Assembly: GCA_004299235.1 (NCBI GenBank)
Contig: SCQL01000017.1
Span: 62,001 to 126,000 of the forward strand
DNA: 64,000 nt
Direction of reading: 5' to 3'
From: a bacterium
Lineage (GTDB): Bacteria > Chloroflexota > Dormibacteria > Dormibacterales > Dormibacteraceae
Part shown: positions 16,196 to 30,734 of the stretch, in pieces
Position numbering within the stretch: position 1 is the first letter of the stretch
How the letters are laid out: each line of letters begins with the position of its first letter
Made by a program: the position numbers and the translations under genes
The notes under the pieces: model-generated
Seen by the model: the letters and a program-made list of their open reading frames with translations, nothing else
The model's database searches: none
What the model was told of the DNA's origin: nothing

Positions 16196-16672
16196 ATGAA
16201 GGACACGCAGAAGTCCGCCAAGAGCGCCAGCACGAAACAAAAGAGGTACGAGGGATTCACCGACGAGGAACGAGCCGCGATGGTGGACCGCGTCCAAGAG
16301 ATGAAGGTGGCGGCGCGCCGCGGCCCCCGCGCGGACAAGGCCGACGAGGAAAGCGCCGTGCTCGCGAAGATCGCCGAGATGCCGGAACGCGATCGCGCCG
16401 TGGGCGAGCGGCTCCATGCCGTCATCACCGCGAGCGCGCCAGCCCTCTCGCCGAGACTCTGGTACGGCATGCCCGCGTATGCCAAGGACGGCAAGATCGT
16501 CTGCCATTTCCAAAGCGCGCAGAAGTTCAAGACGAGGTACGCGACGCTCGGCTTCAGCGACGAGGCGAACCTCGACGAAGGCGCCATGTGGCCGACCGCC
16601 TTCGCTCTGACGGAGTTGACCGCCGCCGTCGAGGCAAGGATCGGCGCGCTCGTGAAGAAAGCGGTGAGCTGA
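16196..16672 (+). CDS. DUF1801/YdhG-like protein
   Basis: A 158-residue protein. The Lys-rich N-terminus (about 20 residues) is followed by a helical linker [17 protein letters not shown]. The DUF1801 core comes next: [48 protein letters not shown], recognisable by the 'P.L....WYGMPAY...GK.V' pattern. Members include frataxin-like iron chaperone FraI/YdhG and many of unknown role. It is a soluble cytosolic protein, monocistronic, with GGAGG seven to nine bases upstream of the start. Confidence 0.8.
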
Positions 16673-17093: not shown

Positions 17094-17123
17094 TGGTCGG
17101 GAGCCCCGGGATTTGAACCCGGA
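17094..17123 (-). repeat. Partial copy of tRNA-Pro 3' end (site A)
   Basis: On the minus strand the sequence reads like the T-arm, acceptor 3' strand and CCA of the tRNA-Pro at 30658, with a mismatch and an inserted base. The match continues past the tRNA into the flank: TTTTGAACTCGAAA is shared with 30643-30656. The anticodon half is absent. It is best read as the outermost attachment-site copy left by integration at the tRNA gene. Confidence 0.65.
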
Positions 17124-17195
17124 CCCAGCCCGCGCTGATCATCGCGAGGACCAGCGCAGCCCAGGTCCAGCGCGCTCAGCCGACCGGAGAGCAAA

Positions 17196-21050: not shown

Positions 21051-21307
21051 ATGGAGTGCAGCCTAACGCGACACATCGCCACTTCCATGGCCAAGTGGTC
21101 GGGAATCTATCGCACGCCGGATTCGCGATCTCCTGCCGGCTCAGGCCGCCCAAGGCCATGGGAACGCTCGAAAAGCCGCCCCACGCCACGAACGCAAGGG
21201 CGCGATTGCGGAAATGCCCCTTGCCACAGGTCCTTTGAATTCTGTGATCCGCCGCGATCCCACTAGCGCGGCACGCAGGCCCGGACGCCCGCCTCGTATT
21301 CAAAAAC

Positions 21308-21348
21308 TGGTCGCCCGGGGTTTGAACCCGGGGCCTCACGGTCCCGAA
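21308..21348 (-). repeat. Partial copy of tRNA-Pro 3' half (site B)
   Basis: Matches the tRNA-Pro from the anticodon loop (TTCGGGA) through CCGTGAGGCC and the T-arm to CCA. It lacks four Cs of the acceptor strand and has one T-loop substitution. It cannot fold a full tRNA. Same orientation as the intact gene at 30658. The surrounding 21051-21528 contains no supportable gene. Confidence 0.7.
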
Positions 21349-21528
21349 TCAGCCGTGGTTGCGTCCAACCATGTCAGTTTCTGCAGGTTTCAGTTCGATT
21401 CTTCGGCTCGACGGCCATCGACGTCCCGGTTTGCACGACTCTTCAGCCGGATTACTACATGAACTACTACACGGATTGTTTACGGAGGCTGACGTCGCCA
21501 AGCTGCTTTGGGCTCCACGTTTCGCAGC

Positions 21529-21906
21529 TTACGGCTCGGCCACTACCTCCCCGATCGAGCGCCGCACACCGCGAACGATCGCATCGATAAGCTTGGGGCT
21601 CAGAGTTCCGGCGGGGCCACGGGCGAGAAAATCGCGGTCGATCGTGGTGATCTCTTCGCAGAAGACGACACTGTCATGGCGCAAGCCTGTTGACCGCGCC
21701 TGCAATGGCACACGCGTGGGCCCGACTTGACCAGCCGAAAAGATCGGGACGACAATCAGATCATCCCGCAGACGATTCCTTACATCCTCTGAAATGACTA
21801 CAGCTGGACGTGGCCGGTGGGGATCATCCGGCTGGCCGGGCGTGAACACATACCAGATCTCCCCCCGACGTGGAGCGGGGTGGGCTAGGCGACTTCGCTG
21901 GCTCAG
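21529..21906 (-). CDS. MazF/PemK-family toxin (RNase) with no usual start codon at the conserved N-terminus
   Basis: The frame contains the MazF beginning RRGEIWYVFTPGQPDDPHRP followed by RPAVVISED, then DLIVVPIF, VGPTRVPLQ, HDSVVFCEEITTIDR. MazF enzymes cleave mRNA. The first ATG/GTG/TTG in frame is the GTG at 21849, inside the conserved strand (WYV|F), which would delete RRGEIWY. The upstream alternative is CTG at 21906-21904, overlapping the antitoxin stop as CTGA, the position where an ATGA junction would be expected. Coordinates here assume that CTG. The toxin may be weakly translated or disabled. Confidence 0.7.
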   Translation of the reverse strand: MSQRSRLAHPAPRRGEIWYVFTPGQPDDPHRPRPAVVISEDVRNRLRDDLIVVPIFSAGQVGPTRVPLQARSTGLRHDSVVFCEEITTIDRDFLARGPAGTLSPKLIDAIVRGVRRSIGEVVAEP

Positions 21907-22154
21907 GTTCTAGAGAGCCGACGCGCAGCTGCCGAACGTCGGATCGATCGCCAGGCACGCTGTTCGGAGGCGATCGGTTGCTCCGGATTGGCGTACTGAG
22001 CCTCCATGGCAAGCTCTTGCTGGCGCGCGTACCACTGGTGAAGAGCTTGGTCGATCACCTTGCTGCGGTCTTGACCAGGATGGTCTTGAACGAACCCGTC
22101 CACTGCATCAAGCAGGTTCGGATCCACCGTCACACTCACTTTGACTCGACTCAT
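21903..22154 (-). CDS. Ribbon-helix-helix antitoxin of the MazF pair
   Basis: An 83-residue protein. N-terminal strand-helix-helix MSRVKVSVTVDPNLLDAVDG, then FVQDHPGQDRSKVIDQALHQWY, is the MetJ/Arc-type fold. The C-terminal Arg-rich helical tail would bind the toxin. It sits directly upstream of the MazF-like gene and should autoregulate the pair. Confidence 0.82.
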   Translation of the reverse strand: MSRVKVSVTVDPNLLDAVDGFVQDHPGQDRSKVIDQALHQWYARQQELAMEAQYANPEQPIASEQRAWRSIRRSAAARRLSRT

Positions 22155-22298: not shown

Positions 22299-22556
22299 TC
22301 ATGCCGCCCTCGAAAAGACGTGATGAAGTCCGCCTAGGATCGGCCGACAGACTACGGCACCGCCCGACATTGGCGGTATCACCTGCCTCCAGATCCAGGC
22401 CGCGGTCGGACTCGCCGTGACGTTGAACTGAATCAGCTCCCTGCGCTCGTGGCTGATGAGGATGAACACATACAGGGTTCGGAAGCCGATCGTCTGCACA
22501 ACGAAAGGTCCGCCGCCCAGATACCCTTGATCTGGTTGCGTAGTGTCAATGGCCAT
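22299..22556 (-). pseudogene. Fragment of a DDE transposase/integrase core
   Basis: An 85-codon frame. The segment FVVQTIGFRTLYVFILISHERRE then LIQFNVTASPTAAWIWRQV resembles the 'F.VLYVF..L.H..R...HFNVT.HPTA.W..QQ' stretch of IS481/integrase-core transposases. The sequences before and after it are not transposase-like, and no catalytic triad is complete. It is a decayed transposon piece. Confidence 0.65.
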
Positions 22557-22756
22557 CTCAAAGTCCCCACTTTTGGCCAGGTGAAAGTCCCCACCCGGCG
22601 CTCATTTCTTCAGGCGCTCACCTCCTCTTGAACGGGCTTCGCGGAGTCTGAAGGACTCGCCCTCGGTGACCACCACGACGGCGCTTGATCCGTTTGGGAT
22701 TACCGCTCGCGAAGAGCTTCTAGGTCATCCATGTCAATGGCCATCTCAAAGTCCCC
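22544..22756 (-). mobile_element. Insertion-sequence debris with 25-bp direct repeats (IS21-like ends)
   Basis: The same 25 bases beginning TGTCAATGGCCATCTCAAAG occur at 22544-22568 and 22732-22756 in direct orientation. A third related piece (GGCCAGGTGAAAGTCCCC) is at 22575-22592. Nested 'GGCCA..TGAAAGTCCCC' units are typical of IS21-type termini. Between them the minus strand encodes a short tail ending VVVVTEGESFRLREARSRGG and stopping at 22602, which looks like the C-terminus of an IstB-like protein. Nothing complete remains. Confidence 0.5.
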
Positions 22757-23375
22757 TGTTAGCGATCACCCAAAACCGGCCAGGACCGATCGAGTTAAAA
22801 CCGGCCATCTGAGGTAGCCCAGGATCACCCTCCGTGGGCTGATTGGCGCTTGCTCGGGCGTTAGCGCCACGACATGTCGGCCTGTCAGGACGACCTCAGC
22901 CAGCGGAGTAGGTGTCGACGAAAGCAACCAGCTTGAGAACGTGCGGGTCGGCCAGCAGTCCGAGAGATTTTTACACAATTTGTGCAGCTACAGCAGAACT
23001 ATCACGTTCCATCCGTTGACGAGAATATTTCTGAATTCAGAAACTGGTCGGGGGAACGGGACACTATTTGAACTCTCGAATTGAGCTCGGCAGCGGCCTC
23101 CTCGACCTAATTAGGACCCATTGCGGCCGGCTTGAACAGGCCGCTGCTGGCGTTTAGTCCCCGCCCGCCGGGCGGGGCAAGGGGAGGTGGCAGTCGGCTC
23201 GGAGGAGCGCGACAAGGTGGCGGGCGTTGGCGGCGCGCCAGCATTCTTGGGCGCCCCGCTGGTGCGGCCCCCTAGGTCGCGATAGTCCCCCCGGAAATTG
23301 TGACCCGGCGGTGATCCACCGGCTCCCGACCACAGACAAGATCGCCAATACAAGGCGTTATGTAGGCCTGGCGGC
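22757..23375. other. Gene-free stretch with decayed tRNA-like copy
   Basis: About 620 bases. Apart from the tRNA-Pro-like remnant at 23041-23075 I find no gene. Short frames on the minus strand around 23111-23353 look like transposon leftovers, but I cannot assign them. Confidence 0.35.
23041..23075 (-). repeat. Strongly decayed tRNA-Pro 3'-end copy
   Basis: AAACTGGTCGGGGG followed by CGGGA, an insertion and TTTGAACTC mirrors the acceptor/T-arm order of the other copies (sites A-D), including the AAACTGG lead seen at site A. It is too damaged to be certain. If real, it marks another element boundary between sites B and C. Confidence 0.4.
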
Positions 23376-25281: not shown

Positions 25282-25331
25282 TTGGTCGGGGGCCCGGGAT
25301 TTGAACCCGGGGCCTCACGGTCCCGAACCGT
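25282..25331 (-). repeat. 50-bp direct repeat identical to the tRNA-Pro 3' part (site C)
   Basis: Identical over 50 bases to 30657-30706: 49 bases of tRNA-Pro(CGG), from inside the anticodon stem to CCA, plus one flanking base. Beyond it the sequences diverge completely. With site D it brackets 25332-30656, as expected for attL/attR of an element integrated in the tRNA gene. Perfect identity suggests this was the most recent insertion. The 234 bases to its left (25048-25281) hold nothing I can identify. Confidence 0.85.
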
Positions 25332-25440
25332 CCTAATGGTGTTTCCTCGCGTGTCCTCTGGGGTCCGCCAGGGCCCTCCTGAACTCAAATCTCGCAGCCT
25401 TCATGTCCTCAGGTGACCTGCCGTGACCGCCTGTTTCCGG

Positions 25441-25468
25441 GAATGTGTGCCCCGGCTGTGCCCCGGCG
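25441..25468 (+). repeat. 28-bp repeat, copy 1 of the element-end repeat
   Basis: GAATGTGTGCCCCGGCTG and the next ten bases are repeated exactly at 30588-30615; a 20-base core recurs at 27335. This copy sits between site C and the integrase remnant. It contains an internal tandem TGTGCCCCGG. Confidence 0.7.
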
Positions 25469-25472
25469 GGGC

Positions 25473-25687
25473 CCACCGCGAATCCGGTTCCATGATCTTC
25501 GGCTCTCATGCGCGACGCTGTTGTTAGTCCAAGGCGTGTCGCCACGCGTCGTGATGGAGTCCTCGGTCACTACGAGATCGCCGTGACTATGGACACCTAC
25601 CGCCATGTCGTTCCGGAATTGCGACGCGATGCGGCCGAAAGAATCGACACGGTTCGCCGAAGGCCGCGAGTTGAGCGAGAAAGATGA
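25473..25687 (+). pseudogene. Tyrosine recombinase (integrase) C-terminal remnant with frameshift
   Basis: Reading PPRIRFHDLRLSCATLLLVQ then GVSPRVVME in one frame, then, after loss of one base near 25559, VLGHYEIAVTMDTYRHVVPE followed by LRRDAAERIDTVRR in the next. This is the catalytic C-terminus of a phage-type integrase: HxxR box (HDLR), LGH and the nucleophilic Tyr in TMDTYRHV. The His usually following HDLR is Leu here. The N-terminal and core-binding domains are gone. It supports the view that sites C and D were made by integrase-mediated insertion. Confidence 0.8.
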
Positions 25688-25848
25688 GCTTCTGACACCA
25701 CGCCGGATTGATCGAGATGTCGTTGATTCAGCTTCGGACGTCTCGTGCACGTTTGAGTCGTGCGGCTACAACCTCCGGCTCGACACCAAGCCGTTGACAC
25801 AAGAGTCTCAATTGACCGTTGCGACGGCACGCCCTACTCTCGGTTTCG

Positions 25849-27261
25849 ATGCCTCGCGAAGTTGGCTCGTTTTTGGGCGAATGGTGGCTACCCGATAAGC
25901 CAGAGCGCCGTGTTGCCGGCCTTCTGCACATAACTGATCGCGGCGATCTTCAGCTGGAAACAACAAGACTTTTCGAAGAGCGCGAGCCGTTCGACCTAAC
26001 CATTGAGGACACGTATCCAGTGGTACATGGCCGTGCAGGGAAGAAGGAATTTACTCTTCTCGACGTTCTGCCGACGACTCCGTACCGCCCAAGCACTTGT
26101 CTCATCGGAGCAACCCTCGCGCCCGAGCACCTGAAGTTCAACCGCATTTGCATTGCGTTTCCGAATCTGACACGGTTCACAGGGTCAACTGGCCTCAGTC
26201 GCACGCGTACTGGCGACAGCCCGACGCACACCTGGAAGCGCCCGCCTTCGAGACGTACTCGAATCTCCGAAGGAGCCTACGTGGACCTCAGCTTTAGCTG
26301 GGAGAGCCCATCGGAGCGCGACAAACTGACGATCGCGGAAACTGCGTATTTCGACGTCCAAGTCGACGATCCGACTGAGATCGAATCACTGCATCAGCAC
26401 ATCGGACCCATTCGCCAGCTAGTCTCGCTGGGGTTCGGAGACTCCGTCGCGCCGTGCGCGGTGGACGTGTTTACACCCTACGTGACCTCGGACATCGGAG
26501 CGAAGAGCGTTGAGGAACCACTTGAGCTAATTCGTGCATACGTTCATCCCGACGATCAGATCGACCCCGATATTTGGCCGATGTTCACGTTGGACGATCT
26601 TCCGGGGAGCTTCGAGGGCGCCCTGCCGCGCTGGTACGAACTCTCGCGCCGCTTGGAACCGGCCCTCGTGGTCTACTTCGGTGCCCTGTACGGTCGCCCC
26701 AGATACCGAGACGATGAGCTCCTGCTATTGGTGATAGCAGCTGAGTCGTATCACCGATTGTCACCACACTTTCAACAAACGACTCAGGGAAAGGATGTAG
26801 ACCGCTGGAACGCAGTCCTTGCATCTGCGCCGACGGAACTGAAGGATTGGCTCGGAGGTCGAATAGGAGAGTCTTTGCAGCGGCGGCTCTGGGAAAGACT
26901 CCGCGACCTTGCGCACCATCCCGGTCCGTCTGGACGAAGAATTGCCAAACGTATTCCCGACTTTCCGTCGAAGCTCGCAAACTGGCGAAACCGGTTGATC
27001 CATTACGACCCGACTAAGGATGCCGCCCGACTAGACGGCGCTCAAATGGCACACGCTTGTTTCGTGTTGCGCTGCCTCCTCACCGGTTGCTTGCTGCGAG
27101 ATATGGGCGTGGAAGAAGCGACGGTCGAGGTAATGCTGGGTAGGAGCCGCCCTGCCCGATATGCGATGGAGTTGAACCCGTGGGAAGACTTCGCGAAGTC
27201 TGCTGAGTCAGAGCCGAACCGTAGCGATGGCGTGTCCCCCGGTGTCCCCGAGGATCCTTAG
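25849..27261 (+). CDS. ApeA-like HEPN protein, probable abortive-infection defence
   Basis: Start chosen at ATG 25849 (MPREVGSFLGEWWLPDKPER). About 470 residues. The N-terminus resembles the ApeA N-terminal domain: GEWWLP with 'G.L....G.L.L....F' strands, and long beta-rich stretches to about residue 200. The C-terminal third is helical with RNRLIH at about 380-385 (R-x4-H), the HEPN ribonuclease motif, followed by YDPTKD. ApeA proteins are single-gene anti-phage systems that are thought to cut RNA on infection. It is the first gene of the element between tRNA sites C and D. GC content looks lower than in core genes. Confidence 0.75.
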   Translation: MPREVGSFLGEWWLPDKPERRVAGLLHITDRGDLQLETTRLFEEREPFDLTIEDTYPVVHGRAGKKEFTLLDVLPTTPYRPSTCLIGATLAPEHLKFNRICIAFPNLTRFTGSTGLSRTRTGDSPTHTWKRPPSRRTRISEGAYVDLSFSWESPSERDKLTIAETAYFDVQVDDPTEIESLHQHIGPIRQLVSLGFGDSVAPCAVDVFTPYVTSDIGAKSVEEPLELIRAYVHPDDQIDPDIWPMFTLDDLPGSFEGALPRWYELSRRLEPALVVYFGALYGRPRYRDDELLLLVIAAESYHRLSPHFQQTTQGKDVDRWNAVLASAPTELKDWLGGRIGESLQRRLWERLRDLAHHPGPSGRRIAKRIPDFPSKLANWRNRLIHYDPTKDAARLDGAQMAHACFVLRCLLTGCLLRDMGVEEATVEVMLGRSRPARYAMELNPWEDFAKSAESEPNRSDGVSPGVPEDP

Positions 27262-27334
27262 AGTCCCCCCGGAATTCAATCGCCGGGTTGTCGTCTCCTC
27301 TGGTGTCCTTTAAGGTCCCCCTGGTTCCGCGATT

Positions 27335-27354
27335 CTGTGCCCCGGCTGTGCCCC
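27335..27354 (+). repeat. 20-bp copy of the element-end repeat
   Basis: CTGTGCCCCGGCTGTGCCCC matches the core of the repeats at 25445 and 30592. It follows two short, similar 'GTGTCC.C.GG.GTCC' units (27228-27330), which resemble sequence just right of site C (25345-25380). This suggests an internal junction between two element ends. Confidence 0.6.
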
Positions 27355-27378
27355 GTGGCCCGGCGGGACAGGCGCCGG

Positions 27379-27951
27379 TTATGGGCCCCCGGGTTTGATT
27401 TCCCACGCGGCCCGCGCTTCATTCGCGAATGTGGGAGCCGTCTTCTCCAAGTGATCCAGGACATCTGCAACGCTCATGGGCGGCCTCCGCTTGATCGAGG
27501 CCTGGCGGCTCAGTGCCTCGTGCACCACGAAGGGCTCGAGGCTAAGCGCGTGAACAAGAAATTCATCGGCTGACTGCACCTCCACGCCGAACTCACCGCA
27601 CGCCTCGGCGGGAAAGTGCTTGAGGTTGTTGGTAACCAGAACGCCGACCTTAGCCACGACCGCCGCGGCCAGCACGTGCCGATCCTTCTCGTTGATTGGC
27701 ATAACGTCGATGAGCTTCTGATACCCGGTCACCTCAGCCTCAGGAAACGCCGTCTGCATATCTCGGATCATCTCGTCGAGGTCCTTCTCACTTACGTGTT
27801 TGTGCTCCTTCAAGATGTTTTTGCGCATCTCCTTCAGGACGTCGGCACTCCACCGGGGCGAATACACCTCGAAGTGAGCGATCCAGAGGAGGCTGTCACG
27901 AAGGCCGACGGGAAAAAGGACGTCGGCATCCAAGAAGGCCGAGAACGCCAC
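27379..27951 (-). CDS. PIN-domain ribonuclease toxin
   Basis: A 190-residue protein. FSAFLDADVLFPVGLRDSLL carries the first PIN acidic residues, DLDEMIRDM a central acid, and NEKDRHVLAAAVVAKVGVLVTNN the second cluster with 'D..VLAAA'. PIN toxins cleave tRNA or mRNA using Mg. Nine bases downstream of the HTH gene in the same orientation, which is standard antitoxin-toxin order. The C-terminal part (ADEFLVHALSLEP) matches the PIN_3-like group. Confidence 0.82.
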   Translation of the reverse strand: MAFSAFLDADVLFPVGLRDSLLWIAHFEVYSPRWSADVLKEMRKNILKEHKHVSEKDLDEMIRDMQTAFPEAEVTGYQKLIDVMPINEKDRHVLAAAVVAKVGVLVTNNLKHFPAEACGEFGVEVQSADEFLVHALSLEPFVVHEALSRQASIKRRPPMSVADVLDHLEKTAPTFANEARAAWEIKPGGP

Positions 27952-27960
27952 GGCCGGAGC

Positions 27961-28401
27961 TTAGTACTTAAGCTCCAGACGCTCCGCCTGCTCGCTCAGG
28001 CGCCGCAAGGCGTCGTCCCTCGTGGACTCGCGGCGTCGCTTGTATTGGATCAGGTCCTCCATGCGGATCCTGCGATGGGTCCCCACCATCTCGTGCGGCA
28101 GGTCCTTCTCTGTGATGAGCTTCACCACATGCTGCCGGGACACCCCGAGGAGGTCCGCCGCCTGCTGCGTGGTGACGAGCATCTTCGTGGGGACGACACT
28201 TATGGCCCTGCCCTTGCCCATCTGGTCGGCAACGATCTTTAGGATCTCAAAGATGGGCCGAGGCACGGCAAGCATTTCGGGCGCCTTGCCGTCCACCAAG
28301 ATCTGTGCGTGGTCGGCCGGCACATGCTCGAGAGCCCGCGAAAACGTCTCGATGACTTTGCGATCCTGCTCGGAGGGAGCCACTGGGGTTGAGAGAGCCA
28401 T
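27961..28401 (-). CDS. Excisionase-type HTH antitoxin
   Basis: A 146-residue protein. The C-terminal half MLVTTQQAADLLGVSRQHVV then KLITEKDLPHEMVGTHRRIR is an excisionase/MerR-like (HTH_17) DNA-binding domain. A preceding helical region (FSRALEHVPADHAQILVDGK) would dimerise or bind the PIN partner. This gene pair (HTH_17 + PIN) is a recognised toxin-antitoxin arrangement. Confidence 0.8.
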   Translation of the reverse strand: MALSTPVAPSEQDRKVIETFSRALEHVPADHAQILVDGKAPEMLAVPRPIFEILKIVADQMGKGRAISVVPTKMLVTTQQAADLLGVSRQHVVKLITEKDLPHEMVGTHRRIRMEDLIQYKRRRESTRDDALRRLSEQAERLELKY

Positions 28402-28555: not shown

Positions 28556-29308
28556 GTGATCGTCGGAGAGAAGGAAATCGCGTCCCTGCTAGAGGTGAAG
28601 GAAAACACCGTTCACCAGTGGTTCGTTCGGCGGATGTTGCCTGAACCTGACGGGTCAGTTAGCGGGAACCCCGCTTGGCACTGGGACACGATCCAATCGT
28701 GGGCTTGGGAGACAGGCAGGATGCCTGATCTCCGCATTCGCGTTCTGTCCATCCTCTCCAAGACGACTGGAGCATTTGCGACACCGCTGACCATCGAGCT
28801 GGTCGGCCGCGGGTGGGTTGGGCCAGGAACGAGCCCCGCAAAAATCGCCAGCGTTTTAACCGACCTCTTCGAGGAGCACTACGTTTCGATCCACCTTCGC
28901 AACGAGTGGCGCATCACCGATGAGGGTCGCCAGTTCCTCGGAGACCGAGCGGAAGGCAAGGAGATTCGACCCATGACTTACCAACCGACCCCAGAAGAAA
29001 TCATCAGGATCTTCCAGCAGTGGGAGAACGCCGCGCGGCGCAGTCCAAACGACAAGGTTTCCACGACTGCACCGCTCGCACCTCCAACTCTCACAGAGGC
29101 ACGCTCACTGATTCCTCGCCTCGAGCAACTGCGACGCGATTTGGAAACGGCGGAGGTTGACTGGCACGGGCGACCCGTCGCCAACCGGGATCAGGCGGCA
29201 ATGGGCCAGCTGTGGGAGGAGTGGAGGGATGACAAACTCGGTGTGCTCAATGGCTACCGCGACGTCTGGCGGTCGCCCGATCCGTTCTACGACTCCCGCC
29301 CGCTCTAA
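28556..29308 (+). CDS. Unrecognised protein with N-terminal HTH and second winged-helix-like region
   Basis: GTG start at 28556. About 250 residues. Residues 1-50 (EKEIASLLEVKENTVHQWFV, then RRMLPEPDG) look like an AlpA/MerR-type DNA-binding helix-turn-helix. Residues 60-130 (IRVLSILSKTTGAFATPLTI, ITDEGRQFLGD) resemble a winged helix. The rest is helical and acidic with LIPRLEQLRRDLETAEVDW. I do not recognise the family. It is divergent from the PIN/HTH pair, with a 154-base intergenic region that must hold both promoters. It may regulate the island or be part of a defence function. Confidence 0.55.
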   Translation: MIVGEKEIASLLEVKENTVHQWFVRRMLPEPDGSVSGNPAWHWDTIQSWAWETGRMPDLRIRVLSILSKTTGAFATPLTIELVGRGWVGPGTSPAKIASVLTDLFEEHYVSIHLRNEWRITDEGRQFLGDRAEGKEIRPMTYQPTPEEIIRIFQQWENAARRSPNDKVSTTAPLAPPTLTEARSLIPRLEQLRRDLETAEVDWHGRPVANRDQAAMGQLWEEWRDDKLGVLNGYRDVWRSPDPFYDSRPL

Positions 29309-29481
29309 GCAGTCCGCCCGCATCCTCTATAACCTCGACCCAGTAAAGGCAGCTGGTCCCGACAACCTGACTGCGTTGTGACCGCGGAAGCACCGCTCGG
29401 AGTCGAGTGCTGTAAGGCTGGGAGTGGAAGAGGAACGTCTGGAAGCGGCTCTGATTATCACGGCGGCGGTATGGTCCTGTC

Positions 29482-30132
29482 ATGCCAAAGAAGGGCGAGC
29501 CAGAGCAAGTTGACATTTCGCGCTTCAAGTCAGAAGAAGACGCCCTCCGGCAGGTCGAGGCAGTCAGGGACCGTTTACATCAGCTCGCAAAGCTGGTCTT
29601 CGAATCAAACGACCGGAACATCACTTACTTGTCAATGTTCCTACTCAGCGCGATTGCACGAGCAAACGGACTCCACCTTGCGACAGTGCATGCCATTGAG
29701 ACGAGCAACCCGCATGCGGCGATTCCGCTAATTCGGTCCTACGGTGATCTCGTGGTTACCGCTCTCTACGTCCGCGACCATCCAGAGTATGTCGATGCCC
29801 TAACCGACCGGCGGCGGGACACGAAAAGCAAGCGCCGCAGCATCGGCTCACTGATAACGGCGGTCACCAAGTATGCCCCCGGAATTAAACACGTCTATGA
29901 CGAACTGTCGGAAGGAACTCACTTCGGTTCAGTGGCAATGTGGGCATCCTGGACCCACAAACCAGACACGGAGGGCACGGTGACATACGCCTCCTACCCT
30001 CGATGGCGCGATGCGCAAAGAGACCCTCTCGTGATGGCTGGTTGGTTGATAGAACTCGGGGAAGCGCTGATTGGTACCGTAGAGGCAACAGTTGGCGCTT
30101 ACCTAAGCCAGGCACCCGCCGCACGCACGTAG
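29482..30132 (+). CDS. Unrecognised helical protein in the defence-like island
   Basis: A 216-residue protein, almost entirely alpha-helical: DALRQVEAVRDRLHQLAKLV, NPHAAIPLIRSYGDLVVTAL, YDELSEGTHFGSVAMW. The 'Y..LSE.THFGS' segment resembles motifs in HEPN-like/DUF5677-type proteins near phage-defence genes, but no R-x4-H nuclease motif is present. No membrane segments. I cannot name it. It is downstream of the HTH protein (173 bases), same strand. Confidence 0.5.
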   Translation: MPKKGEPEQVDISRFKSEEDALRQVEAVRDRLHQLAKLVFESNDRNITYLSMFLLSAIARANGLHLATVHAIETSNPHAAIPLIRSYGDLVVTALYVRDHPEYVDALTDRRRDTKSKRRSIGSLITAVTKYAPGIKHVYDELSEGTHFGSVAMWASWTHKPDTEGTVTYASYPRWRDAQRDPLVMAGWLIELGEALIGTVEATVGAYLSQAPAART

Positions 30133-30587
30133 ATCTCTGTCGACCAGCGAACTGAATCTGGTTGTTGCACTGCAGGCATCCTTGACACGGCCGGACCCCC
30201 CGGGTTCGGGAAACGTCGTCTGGGTCACATCGGGTCAATCGATGCCGCTCCCGATCAACACTGTCGCGTCGCACAACGGGGTGAGCACGTGACGCCCTCG
30301 CTTCGGAGCTCGCACACGTCGGACCTCCGTGCCACTCCGATCGACCCACGCGAGCGTGTTTTCGAACGGGATGGAGAACGCGAAACCATCCCCGGTGGCG
30401 GACCATGCTGGTGTGGCGCAGTCCAACGAGCCAGTCGGCCTGTGATTTTCGAACCGTCTGCCTCACGGTCCTGACAGTTGCATCAACTGATATATAGCTC
30501 TGCGCACGCCCCAAGTCCGTGTCGTCCAAGTTCAGATCGTGCCCACCATCGCGACAAACTTCGCAACCTCGATGCGAGGTTCTCCAA
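30133..30587. other. Gene-free end of the integrated element
   Basis: No supportable gene. A weak resemblance to the tRNA-Pro T-arm/anticodon half appears at 30431-30474 (GATTTTCGAACC and GCCTCACGGTC in the right order), which might be another decayed attachment copy. Confidence 0.35.
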
Positions 30588-30615
30588 GAATGTGTGCCCC
30601 GGCTGTGCCCCGGCG
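30588..30615 (+). repeat. 28-bp repeat, copy 2 of the element-end repeat
   Basis: Exact copy of 25441-25468, here 42 bases from the tRNA-Pro CCA end. The two copies lie at the two ends of the C-D element in direct orientation. Confidence 0.7.
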
Positions 30616-30657
30616 ACTGCGGATGACGTCCAAAATCGGCGATTTTGAACTCGAAAT

Positions 30658-30734
30658 TGGTCGGGGGCCCGGGATTTGAACCCGGGGCCTCACGGTCCCG
30701 AACCGTGCGCGCTGCCAAACTGCGCCAGCCCCCG
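30658..30734 (-). tRNA. tRNA-Pro (anticodon CGG), CCA encoded
   Basis: A 77-base minus-strand gene. Acceptor CGGGGGC pairs with GCCCCCG; D-arm GCGC/GCGC; anticodon stem CACGG/CCGTG with loop TTCGGGA gives anticodon CGG; T-arm CCGGG-TTCAAAT-CCCGG; discriminator A and CCA are encoded. It is the only complete copy; its 3' part recurs at 25282, 21308, 17094 and, decayed, 23041. Integration into the 3' half restores the gene each time, so it stays functional. Confidence 0.95.

Follow-up and report, generated by a model that had tools for sequence, protein, structure and literature searches.

Unrecognised genes ORF1 and ORF2 in a stack of nearly integrase-free cassettes behind tRNA-Pro(CGG) in a Dormibacteraceae genome

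The 64,000-nt stretch of DNA that we analysed (the window) carries two neighbouring genes, ORF1 and ORF2, in what appears to be an unusual setting: accessory cassettes, nearly free of integrases, that are stacked head to tail behind a tRNA-Pro gene. We propose, giving the account as a whole slightly better than an even chance, that the pair belongs to an integrase-free cassette at tRNA-Pro(CGG), with ORF2 as an accessory or effector protein and ORF1 as a regulator. Several parts of this account can be read from the sequence itself: repeats of half the tRNA gene, a decayed integrase, the stacking, an internal cassette end, similar arrays in related genomes, and defence-type neighbours of some relatives. 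ORF1 and ORF2 are real genes, selected by a custom codon-usage caller (scores of 30.3 and 18.3, respectively) and backed by homologues, and a preliminary description of this DNA had their boundaries exactly right. It had also called them unrecognised, and so they truly are, since both score below every curated cut-off in Pfam and NCBIfam. Furthermore, neither matches PADLOC at E up to 1; a PDB sequence search with ORF1, ORF2 and DUF5677 (the family with which we compare ORF2 below) returned nothing at E below 0.1; and no relatives were found in viral contigs (by short-peptide patterns) or on plasmids, where a search with the ORF2 homologue at locus L032 gave one weak match (E=0.3).

The two genes lie in a 5,375-bp segment between perfect repeats of part of the tRNA gene (Table 1). 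The repeat stops in the anticodon loop: its shared core runs as far as 30702, just past the anticodon at 30698-30700 (from ARAGORN's position 35). Four att-like matches with up to 3 mismatches occur in the window and none in 100 shuffles. G+C content is 0.596 within the segment versus 0.694 in the right flank. A single tRNA-Pro(CGG) is present in each of nine relatives' stretches (L153-L157, L159-L162), with none in L158, and farther out the gene at 16196-16672 has relatives on array contigs of genomes G071 and G199. No integrase or transfer families were found among the segment's five scanned proteins; the decayed integrase fragment resembles an integrase on array contig G239:C24 (77% identity over 35 aa, 56% over 43 aa). 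Flanking att repeats with the integrase present as a remnant only make up the sequence pattern of a CIME, and the rest of the window's genome holds seven Phage_integrase matches. ApeA has the sequence features that define its family and carries the Rx4-6H motif as R390NRLIH395.

Table 1. Features of the window at and around the tRNA-Pro(CGG) gene
Feature	Position	Strand	Basis or remarks
Weak att-like copy, possible older boundary	17094-17143		62% identity
Degenerate att copy, next boundary outward	21303-21352		76%; 2 mismatches over 37-nt core
att copy, distal end of 5,375-bp segment	25282-25331		perfect 50-nt repeat of 30657-30706
Beta-family cassette end with arm-like repeat	25332-25467		TGTGCCCCGGC twice, 25446-25467; one of 34 similar ends
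Decayed tyrosine-integrase C-terminus, two frames	25455-25651	+	similarity to integrase of G239:C24
ApeA: ApeA_NTD1 and Apea-like HEPN	25819-27261	+	PF18862 6.6e-29, PF18739 1.3e-16
Internal beta-family cassette end, no att core	27227-27355		alignment to left end and to other cassettes' ends
PIN-domain toxin-like protein	27379-27951	-	below Pfam PIN_3 and NCBIfam RSP_2648 cut-offs
HTH_17 protein, presumed antitoxin	27961-28401	-	also above NCBIfam excisionase-family DNA-binding cut-off
ORF1	28556-29308	+	250 aa, GTG start; N-terminal HTH, possible winged HTH, C-terminal region
ORF2	29482-30132	+	216 aa; DUF5677-like helical protein
Right cassette end with arm-like repeat, abuts att	30583-30656		TGTGCCCCGGC twice, 30593-30614; class of five other right ends
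att copy near tRNA gene, 3' half of tRNA-Pro to anticodon loop	30657-30706		50-nt direct repeat, 100% = 25282-25331
tRNA-Pro, anticodon CGG, integration target	30658-30734	-	ARAGORN

The pair had been said to follow toxin and defence genes in the same element. ApeA and the PIN/HTH pair do precede it between the tRNA-Pro repeats; the internal cassette end suggests, on the other hand, that ApeA stems from a different ancestral cassette. The left end of the segment (25336-25465) aligns with this internal copy at a score of 61, which compares with a maximum of 31 in 500 shuffles, and the internal copy aligns with cassette ends of other genomes at scores up to 82 (a comparison made without shuffles). 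No att core precedes it, the best candidate having 24 mismatches of 44, and the final ~11 codons of ApeA extend into it. Because of this internal end, we infer that the segment may consist of two cassettes fused by deletion, one with the integrase remnant and ApeA, the other with the PIN/HTH pair, ORF1 and ORF2.

Similar arrays recur in the family. With 3 mismatches allowed, a 37-nt att pattern was matched in 36 of 42 family genomes, the window's own included, and its reversed control gave 0. With the tRNA gene counted, there are 32 matches in G289, 18 in G199, 12 in G087, 11 in G239, 8 in G441 and 3 in the window's genome; at least three occur in 14 of the 42 genomes, two in 4, one in 18 and none in 6, the last two groups indicating that arrays are either not universal or have been lost in drafts. 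On 33 contigs of ten genomes, which were selected for holding several copies and represent part of the places with pattern matches, a 44-nt core (up to 10 mismatches) gave 86 copies and its control 0; conservation drops sharply at either edge of the core. These copies delimit 53 intervals of 1.3-28.7 kb (median 4.5 kb), and in 52 both ends are on the same strand. Ten integrase queries detected an intact integrase in a single interval (G289:C100) and remnants in three more: the window, G199:C138 and, weakly (E=5e-4), G441:C34. Outside complete intervals there is a remnant on G087:C22, and there are intact or partial integrases on G239:C24, G071:C14 and G296:C24. Together with a profile of 6 sequences, these ten queries made up the search, a set small enough for an unrelated recombinase to be missed.

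The sequence following the core falls into two families, comprising 37 and 34 of the 86 sites (single linkage at a score of 60, versus a shuffled maximum of 30); 8 of the remaining sites form a third group, the genuine tRNA gene, while two make up a pair and five stand alone. The opposite side of the core is diverse among the 86 sites. To the left of the window's array there is a nine-gene block (3-12 kb; ABC-transporter-like by eye) that is also found beyond the att copies of G441:C68, with protein identities of 67-87%; its presence beyond the array in both genomes argues for insertion between conserved flanks. These genomes are drafts, and several contigs break off no more than a few hundred bases from the tRNA repeat; the copy numbers may therefore be underestimates, and the continuity of the arrays is for the most part presumed. 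The array contigs of G199 and G289 are 99.9% identical over 7.6 kb, with chromosomal flanks at 79%; we do not claim a recent transfer between the two from this identity, the same contig possibly having been binned twice.

Comparison with its homologues places ORF2 as a divergent, DUF5677-like and predicted helical protein. Relatives at 37% identity occur in 2 of 399 other genomes, and searching 110 class genomes with a profile added a single, distant match in G416 (E=1.2e-6). The three homologues besides the window (L031, L032 and L033) are 31-33% identical overall; we judge two of them to be the relatives from the 399-genome search. ORF2 had been described as a helical protein with an 'LSE.THFGS' segment, and both points are borne out: the structure model is all-helical (pLDDT 70.4, pTM 0.70), and residues 142-150 read LSEGTHFGS, of which L142, E144, H147, F148, G149 and S150 are invariant in all four homologues, that of the window among them, and three of the four share S143. 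Against DUF5677 (PF18928) the window protein scores 13.6 bits, under the gathering cut-off of 27.1, and in this it differs from members of the family; L033 passes at 29.7, L032 falls just below at 25.2, and the L031 and G416 proteins gave no match. The likeness to the family lies in R85 and S143EGTH147, which correspond to the conserved R100 and S212xxxH216 of DUF5677 as matched by eye, without computed significance; R100 and H216 are invariant among 11 DUF5677 proteins. An hhalign comparison of ORF2 with these 11 proteins (E=0.023, probability 2%, 47 columns) sets R85 in register with the DUF5677 arginine and leaves SxxxH outside the alignment. In a mostly open-access literature, mention of DUF5677 was found only in work that, judging by its title, concerns another subject, and neither ApeA nor DUF5677 is named in the available portion of the main text of PMC9519451.

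ORF2 might also be a HEPN-like RNase, which we regard as possible. According to excerpts of PMC3710099, Rx4-6H is the predicted HEPN active site, the residue following R is typically polar, and some families retain the His without the Arg; the HEPN protein Tha is described, in an excerpt of PMC11087260, as an RNase with abortive-infection-like action. ORF2 has a candidate motif, R60ANGLH65, in which R60 and H65 are invariant in all four homologues. This motif is not conserved across the wider DUF5677 set, and the residue following its R is non-polar. Foldseek returned no match to the ORF2 model under E 0.001 (best E 0.57), and VIA-align placed the HEPN protein 2hsb at Z 8.7, amid unrelated helical proteins at similar Z. 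Structure prediction and fold search, which had been suggested for both genes, yielded for ORF2 the all-helical model with no significant fold match, and for ORF1 a model too poor for a fold search (pLDDT 38.6).

The preliminary description took the location of the pair to be a defence position. That judgement holds in part for relatives of the two genes, some of which are defence-linked, and does not extend to the surrounding array as sampled. We examined cargo in 50 of the 53 intervals, namely those that are same-strand and under 16 kb, which carry 1-12 called genes in both directions. From 220 usable proteins (224 unique non-window proteins with a caller score over 12, less 4 that span a boundary), 150 were drawn at random. 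They match 151 Pfam families at E up to 1e-5, the top ones being TetR_N (6), GerE (5) and NAD_binding_10, ABC_tran, Response_reg, rve_3, RibD_C and DAO (4 each); Phage_integrase is absent from the 25 commonest. PADLOC matched mad3, mad8 and CARF3 (4 each), AriA (2), and PycC, pVip and NsnB (1 each). The control, 83 of 112 flank proteins after near-duplicate flanks of four genomes were left out and not mobility-matched, gave mad2 (3) and mad3, mad8, AriA and AbiLi (1 each). The cargo matches are mainly to models that the control also rings, the single PycC, pVip and NsnB matches having no control counterpart. We considered whether the array is a defence island; the sample does not bear this out, with TetR, LuxR, NAD-binding, ABC and response-regulator types the commonest. 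As the commonest cargo is metabolic or regulatory, a place in the array does not by itself mark a gene as defensive; the array looks like a general cargo store.

Such cargo, together with PADLOC matches mainly to generic models, lends weight to the best-surviving alternative: that ORF1 and ORF2 are ordinary passengers, a regulator and a helical protein of unrelated cellular role, captured by the array and taking no part in defence. The expectation that homologues of the pair lie near defence genes also fails at L009 and L010, two of the three non-window ORF2 relatives, whose closest neighbouring genes appear ordinary on visual inspection. (At L010 there is a recombinase-like gene beside tRNA-Gly, ~7 kb from the ORF2 relative.) The same expectation is borne out at 4 of 17 loci with a DUF5677-type gene. 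These loci come from 16 of 301 phylum genomes; 14 are above the family cut-off (L148, L149 and L150 are below it) and L137 and L151 are near-duplicates. Our scan of their neighbours took in 38 proteins within 1.5 kb, some of them partial and with L147 968-2020 left out, and had no random-gene control. Among the matches listed, DUF5677 genes above the cut-off have as neighbours ApeA (L143), KwaA at a distance of two bases (L145) and a methyltransferase-like gene (L137), and those below it have AbiEi plus a pAgo-like cross-hit (L149) and a SocA/Panacea antitoxin (L150); ApeA, KwaA, AbiEi or methyltransferase thereby adjoins a DUF5677-type gene in the 4 of 17, one of them sub-threshold.

Two segments speak against the passenger explanation. 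In G071, ApeA and a DUF5677 gene adjoin each other in a 5.9-kb segment with a 57-nt repeat (93%) that includes the 3' half of tRNA-Arg(tct); no integrase was seen by eye in its gene list, and the HEPN part of this ApeA has no Rx4-6H, unlike that of the window. At L032, a PIN gene, an HTH gene and the ORF2 homologue follow in that order, without ORF1, in a segment of 3.2 kb. On either side of it stands a 93-nt repeat (95%) that comprises the tRNA-Arg(ccg) 5' half plus DNA upstream of that gene; here too no integrase was seen by eye, in gene list or translations. Neither association is general. Among 301 genomes, 6 contain ApeA, at 7 loci; two of these, in the window and in G071, have a gene of DUF5677 or ORF2 type nearby (E up to 0.01), and the other five have none within the 5-18 kb searched. 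PIN matches were found in 24 of 400 genomes (own included), with an HTH match within 1.5 kb at 27 of 28 loci; no match to ORF1 or ORF2 lies within that distance of any of the 27 other PIN matches listed (at the window's own locus the range stops short of ORF2), and the PIN/HTH pair is therefore a general module. For the same reason we rejected the view of PIN/HTH plus ORF2 as a single conserved unit. With the defence and toxin-antitoxin genes that adjoin DUF5677 matches, and also the HTH module of ORF1 (below), set against it, we rate the passenger explanation as unlikely, if well short of negligible. ORF2 is most likely, we infer, an accessory defence or toxin-antitoxin protein; the interpretation of the pair as defence components is, on these comparisons, partly supported.

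ORF1 is a predicted DNA-binding protein with one supported HTH. It had been described as a double-HTH protein, and the N-terminal HTH is supported: it matches phrog_597 (E=1.2e-7), and residues 2-57 or 2-59 share 53-59% identity with three HTH modules. The second, winged HTH is weakly indicated, by a match to phrog_2440 (E=0.033). Partial relatives of ORF1 occur in 4 of 399 other genomes. The N-terminal module is common to three class relatives, in which it adjoins DUF6088 and AbiEii (L012), lies upstream of an AbiEii-type gene (L013) or adjoins a TIR protein (L014). The AbiEii-type genes at L012 and L013 are nucleotidyltransferases. Residues 145-239, at the C-terminus, have a counterpart of 64% identity in G063, ~275 bp from tRNA-Leu.

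Could ORF1 and ORF2 form a new stand-alone two-gene defence system? They stand next to each other in one orientation, with toxin and defence genes upstream, and the absence of any Pfam, NCBIfam or PADLOC assignment would suit novelty. Against this, 173 bp separate them, no second locus holding genes of both types was found, and relatives of each occur apart: they are present together in one other genome (G396), on separate contigs, and the L032 homologue of ORF2 adjoins PIN/HTH with no ORF1. We find this explanation improbable. The least probable alternative is a mobility role, ORF1 (or the HTH_17 protein) acting as an excisionase-like directionality factor and ORF2 as an accessory recombination protein: the small-type HTH at the start of ORF1, the tRNA-Leu near the relative of its C-terminus, and the 53.3 bits of the HTH_17 protein against an excisionase-family cut-off of 28.8, by which an excision role is possible, are countered by a cassette without intact integrase, the 250-aa length of ORF1 with its long extra C-terminus, the recurrence of the HTH_17 protein beside PIN genes elsewhere, as expected of an antitoxin, and the defence genes that adjoin DUF5677 matches.

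We hypothesize that the cassette arose and works as follows. An integrase acting in trans, or formerly in cis, would insert each cassette at the anticodon loop, with the tRNA restored at every insertion. ORF1 and ORF2 would have arrived together with the PIN/HTH toxin-antitoxin pair, and a later deletion would have joined their cassette to the neighbouring ApeA cassette. ORF2, a helical bundle, would most likely have an accessory or effector role in a phage-response or toxin-antitoxin module and rely on two conserved residues, R85 and H147; ORF1 would most likely be a DNA-binding regulator, both of the promoter region between the divergent antitoxin gene and ORF1 and of ORF2.

Several known systems resemble the array. 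The available part of PMC3146451 describes 31 ssrA islands of Dehalococcoides, of which 16 carry an integration module; the other 15 lack one and are discussed there as possible cis-mobilizable elements. Like the array, these islands stand in tandem at one RNA gene and are bounded by repeats of its 3' end; the array is nevertheless no ssrA island, its target being tRNA-Pro rather than ssrA and its remnant a tyrosine integrase rather than a DsiB-type serine recombinase. The scale differs as well: there are 32 att matches in G289 alone versus 31 ssrA islands over all datasets, and one interval among the 53 holds an intact integrase, versus a module in 16 of 31 islands (PMC3146451, same part). 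With CIMEs and tandem accretion, both named in that source, the array shares att-flanked DNA without an integrase of its own, arranged in tandem. It is distinguished from a CIME by its many cassettes with two end-families at one site. We regard the array as a probable form of tandem accretion or of cis-mobilizable elements, new in its tRNA-Pro setting; literature on tRNA arrays or Dormibacterota mobile elements, judged by titles and abstract openings and covering few subscription papers, gave no description of it. The tycheposons of marine cyanobacteria are tRNA-anchored cargo elements with tyrosine recombinases; their likeness to the array would lie in the tRNA anchoring and the tyrosine recombinases, in a different lineage. 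Integrons gather many same-orientation cassettes at one site, with the integrase mostly outside the cassette. Unlike theirs, the repeat here is, by its identity, half a tRNA gene and not attC, and the intervals of up to 16 kb carry 1-12 called genes in both directions.

A broader conjecture, which we hold tentatively and consider rather less probable than the account of the pair itself, is that the window's family runs an integron-like system: the tRNA-Pro half would be a shared site at which integrases in trans shuffle integrase-free multi-gene cassettes with two end-families and one orientation, and ApeA, DUF5677 and toxin-antitoxin modules would be recurrent cargo, also at other tRNA genes. 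If so, a little-studied lineage would keep accessory genes behind one tRNA gene, in long stacks with a common orientation, and the near-absence of integrases would open integron-like traffic driven in trans to direct test. The order in which cassettes arrived could perhaps be read from a stack, with the most recent beside the tRNA, and the cassette ends would offer a sequence rule for finding cargo, defence genes included, in other genomes. DUF5677, a family so far without a function, would be linked to ApeA, KwaA and toxin-antitoxin neighbours, with R85 and H147 as the residues to mutate.

Two of the sequence stretches from relatives place DUF5677 matches, one of them sub-threshold, beside defence-type genes. 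In L145, a KwaA gene follows the DUF5677 gene after two bases on the same strand, with a TraG-like gene on the opposite flank. In L179, two tRNA-Asn genes that are 99% identical are separated by 6.1 kb; a sub-threshold DUF5677 match and AbiEi are located 3' of one of them. A third stretch (L152, from genome G071) carries a 5.9-kb segment comprising ApeA, DUF5677 and two more called genes. At both ends of the segment stands a 57-nt repeat that includes the 3' half of tRNA-Arg(tct). Rx4-6H is absent from the HEPN part of this ApeA.

Relatives of the two window proteins have neighbours of their own. An HTH protein that shares the N-terminal module of ORF1 (an HTH protein of the window) adjoins a TIR-domain protein that also scores over the ThsB_TIR cut-off (L014). 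A homologue of ORF2 (the DUF5677-like helical protein) accompanies a PIN/HTH pair in a segment of L032. The repeats bounding this segment match the 5' half of tRNA-Arg(ccg), the opposite tRNA half to the one repeated around ORF1 and ORF2 in the window. In L010, tRNA-Gly is adjoined by a recombinase-like gene and then, as judged by eye, by one HTH-type and one nucleotidyltransferase-like gene, all several kb away from an ORF2 relative.

Positions of the features in the window and in stretches from relatives
Sequence	Positions	Feature
L145	713-2034	DUF5677 and KwaA genes
L179	9832-15992	tRNA-Asn gene pair
L152	7484-13411	ApeA and DUF5677 segment
L014	4713-6072	TIR-domain and HTH proteins
L032	5679-8996	PIN/HTH pair and ORF2 homologue
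L010	1709-4629	tRNA-Gly and adjoining genes
Window	21529-22154	PemK-like toxin, RHH-type antitoxin
Window	22544-22594	Repeat
Window	22732-22758	Repeat

The PemK-like toxin and RHH-type antitoxin of the window lie in the next cassette outward from that of ORF1 and ORF2; both G071 and G239 carry relatives (81-85% identity) on their array contigs. The repeats at 22544-22594 and 22732-22758 resemble the ends of IS21-family elements; no transposase was seen in the window's gene list.

Array contigs from two further genomes (L099 and L113) share 7.6 kb of array at 99.9% identity, and the chromosomal flanks of these genomes are 79% identical; the near-identity may reflect either transfer or double binning.
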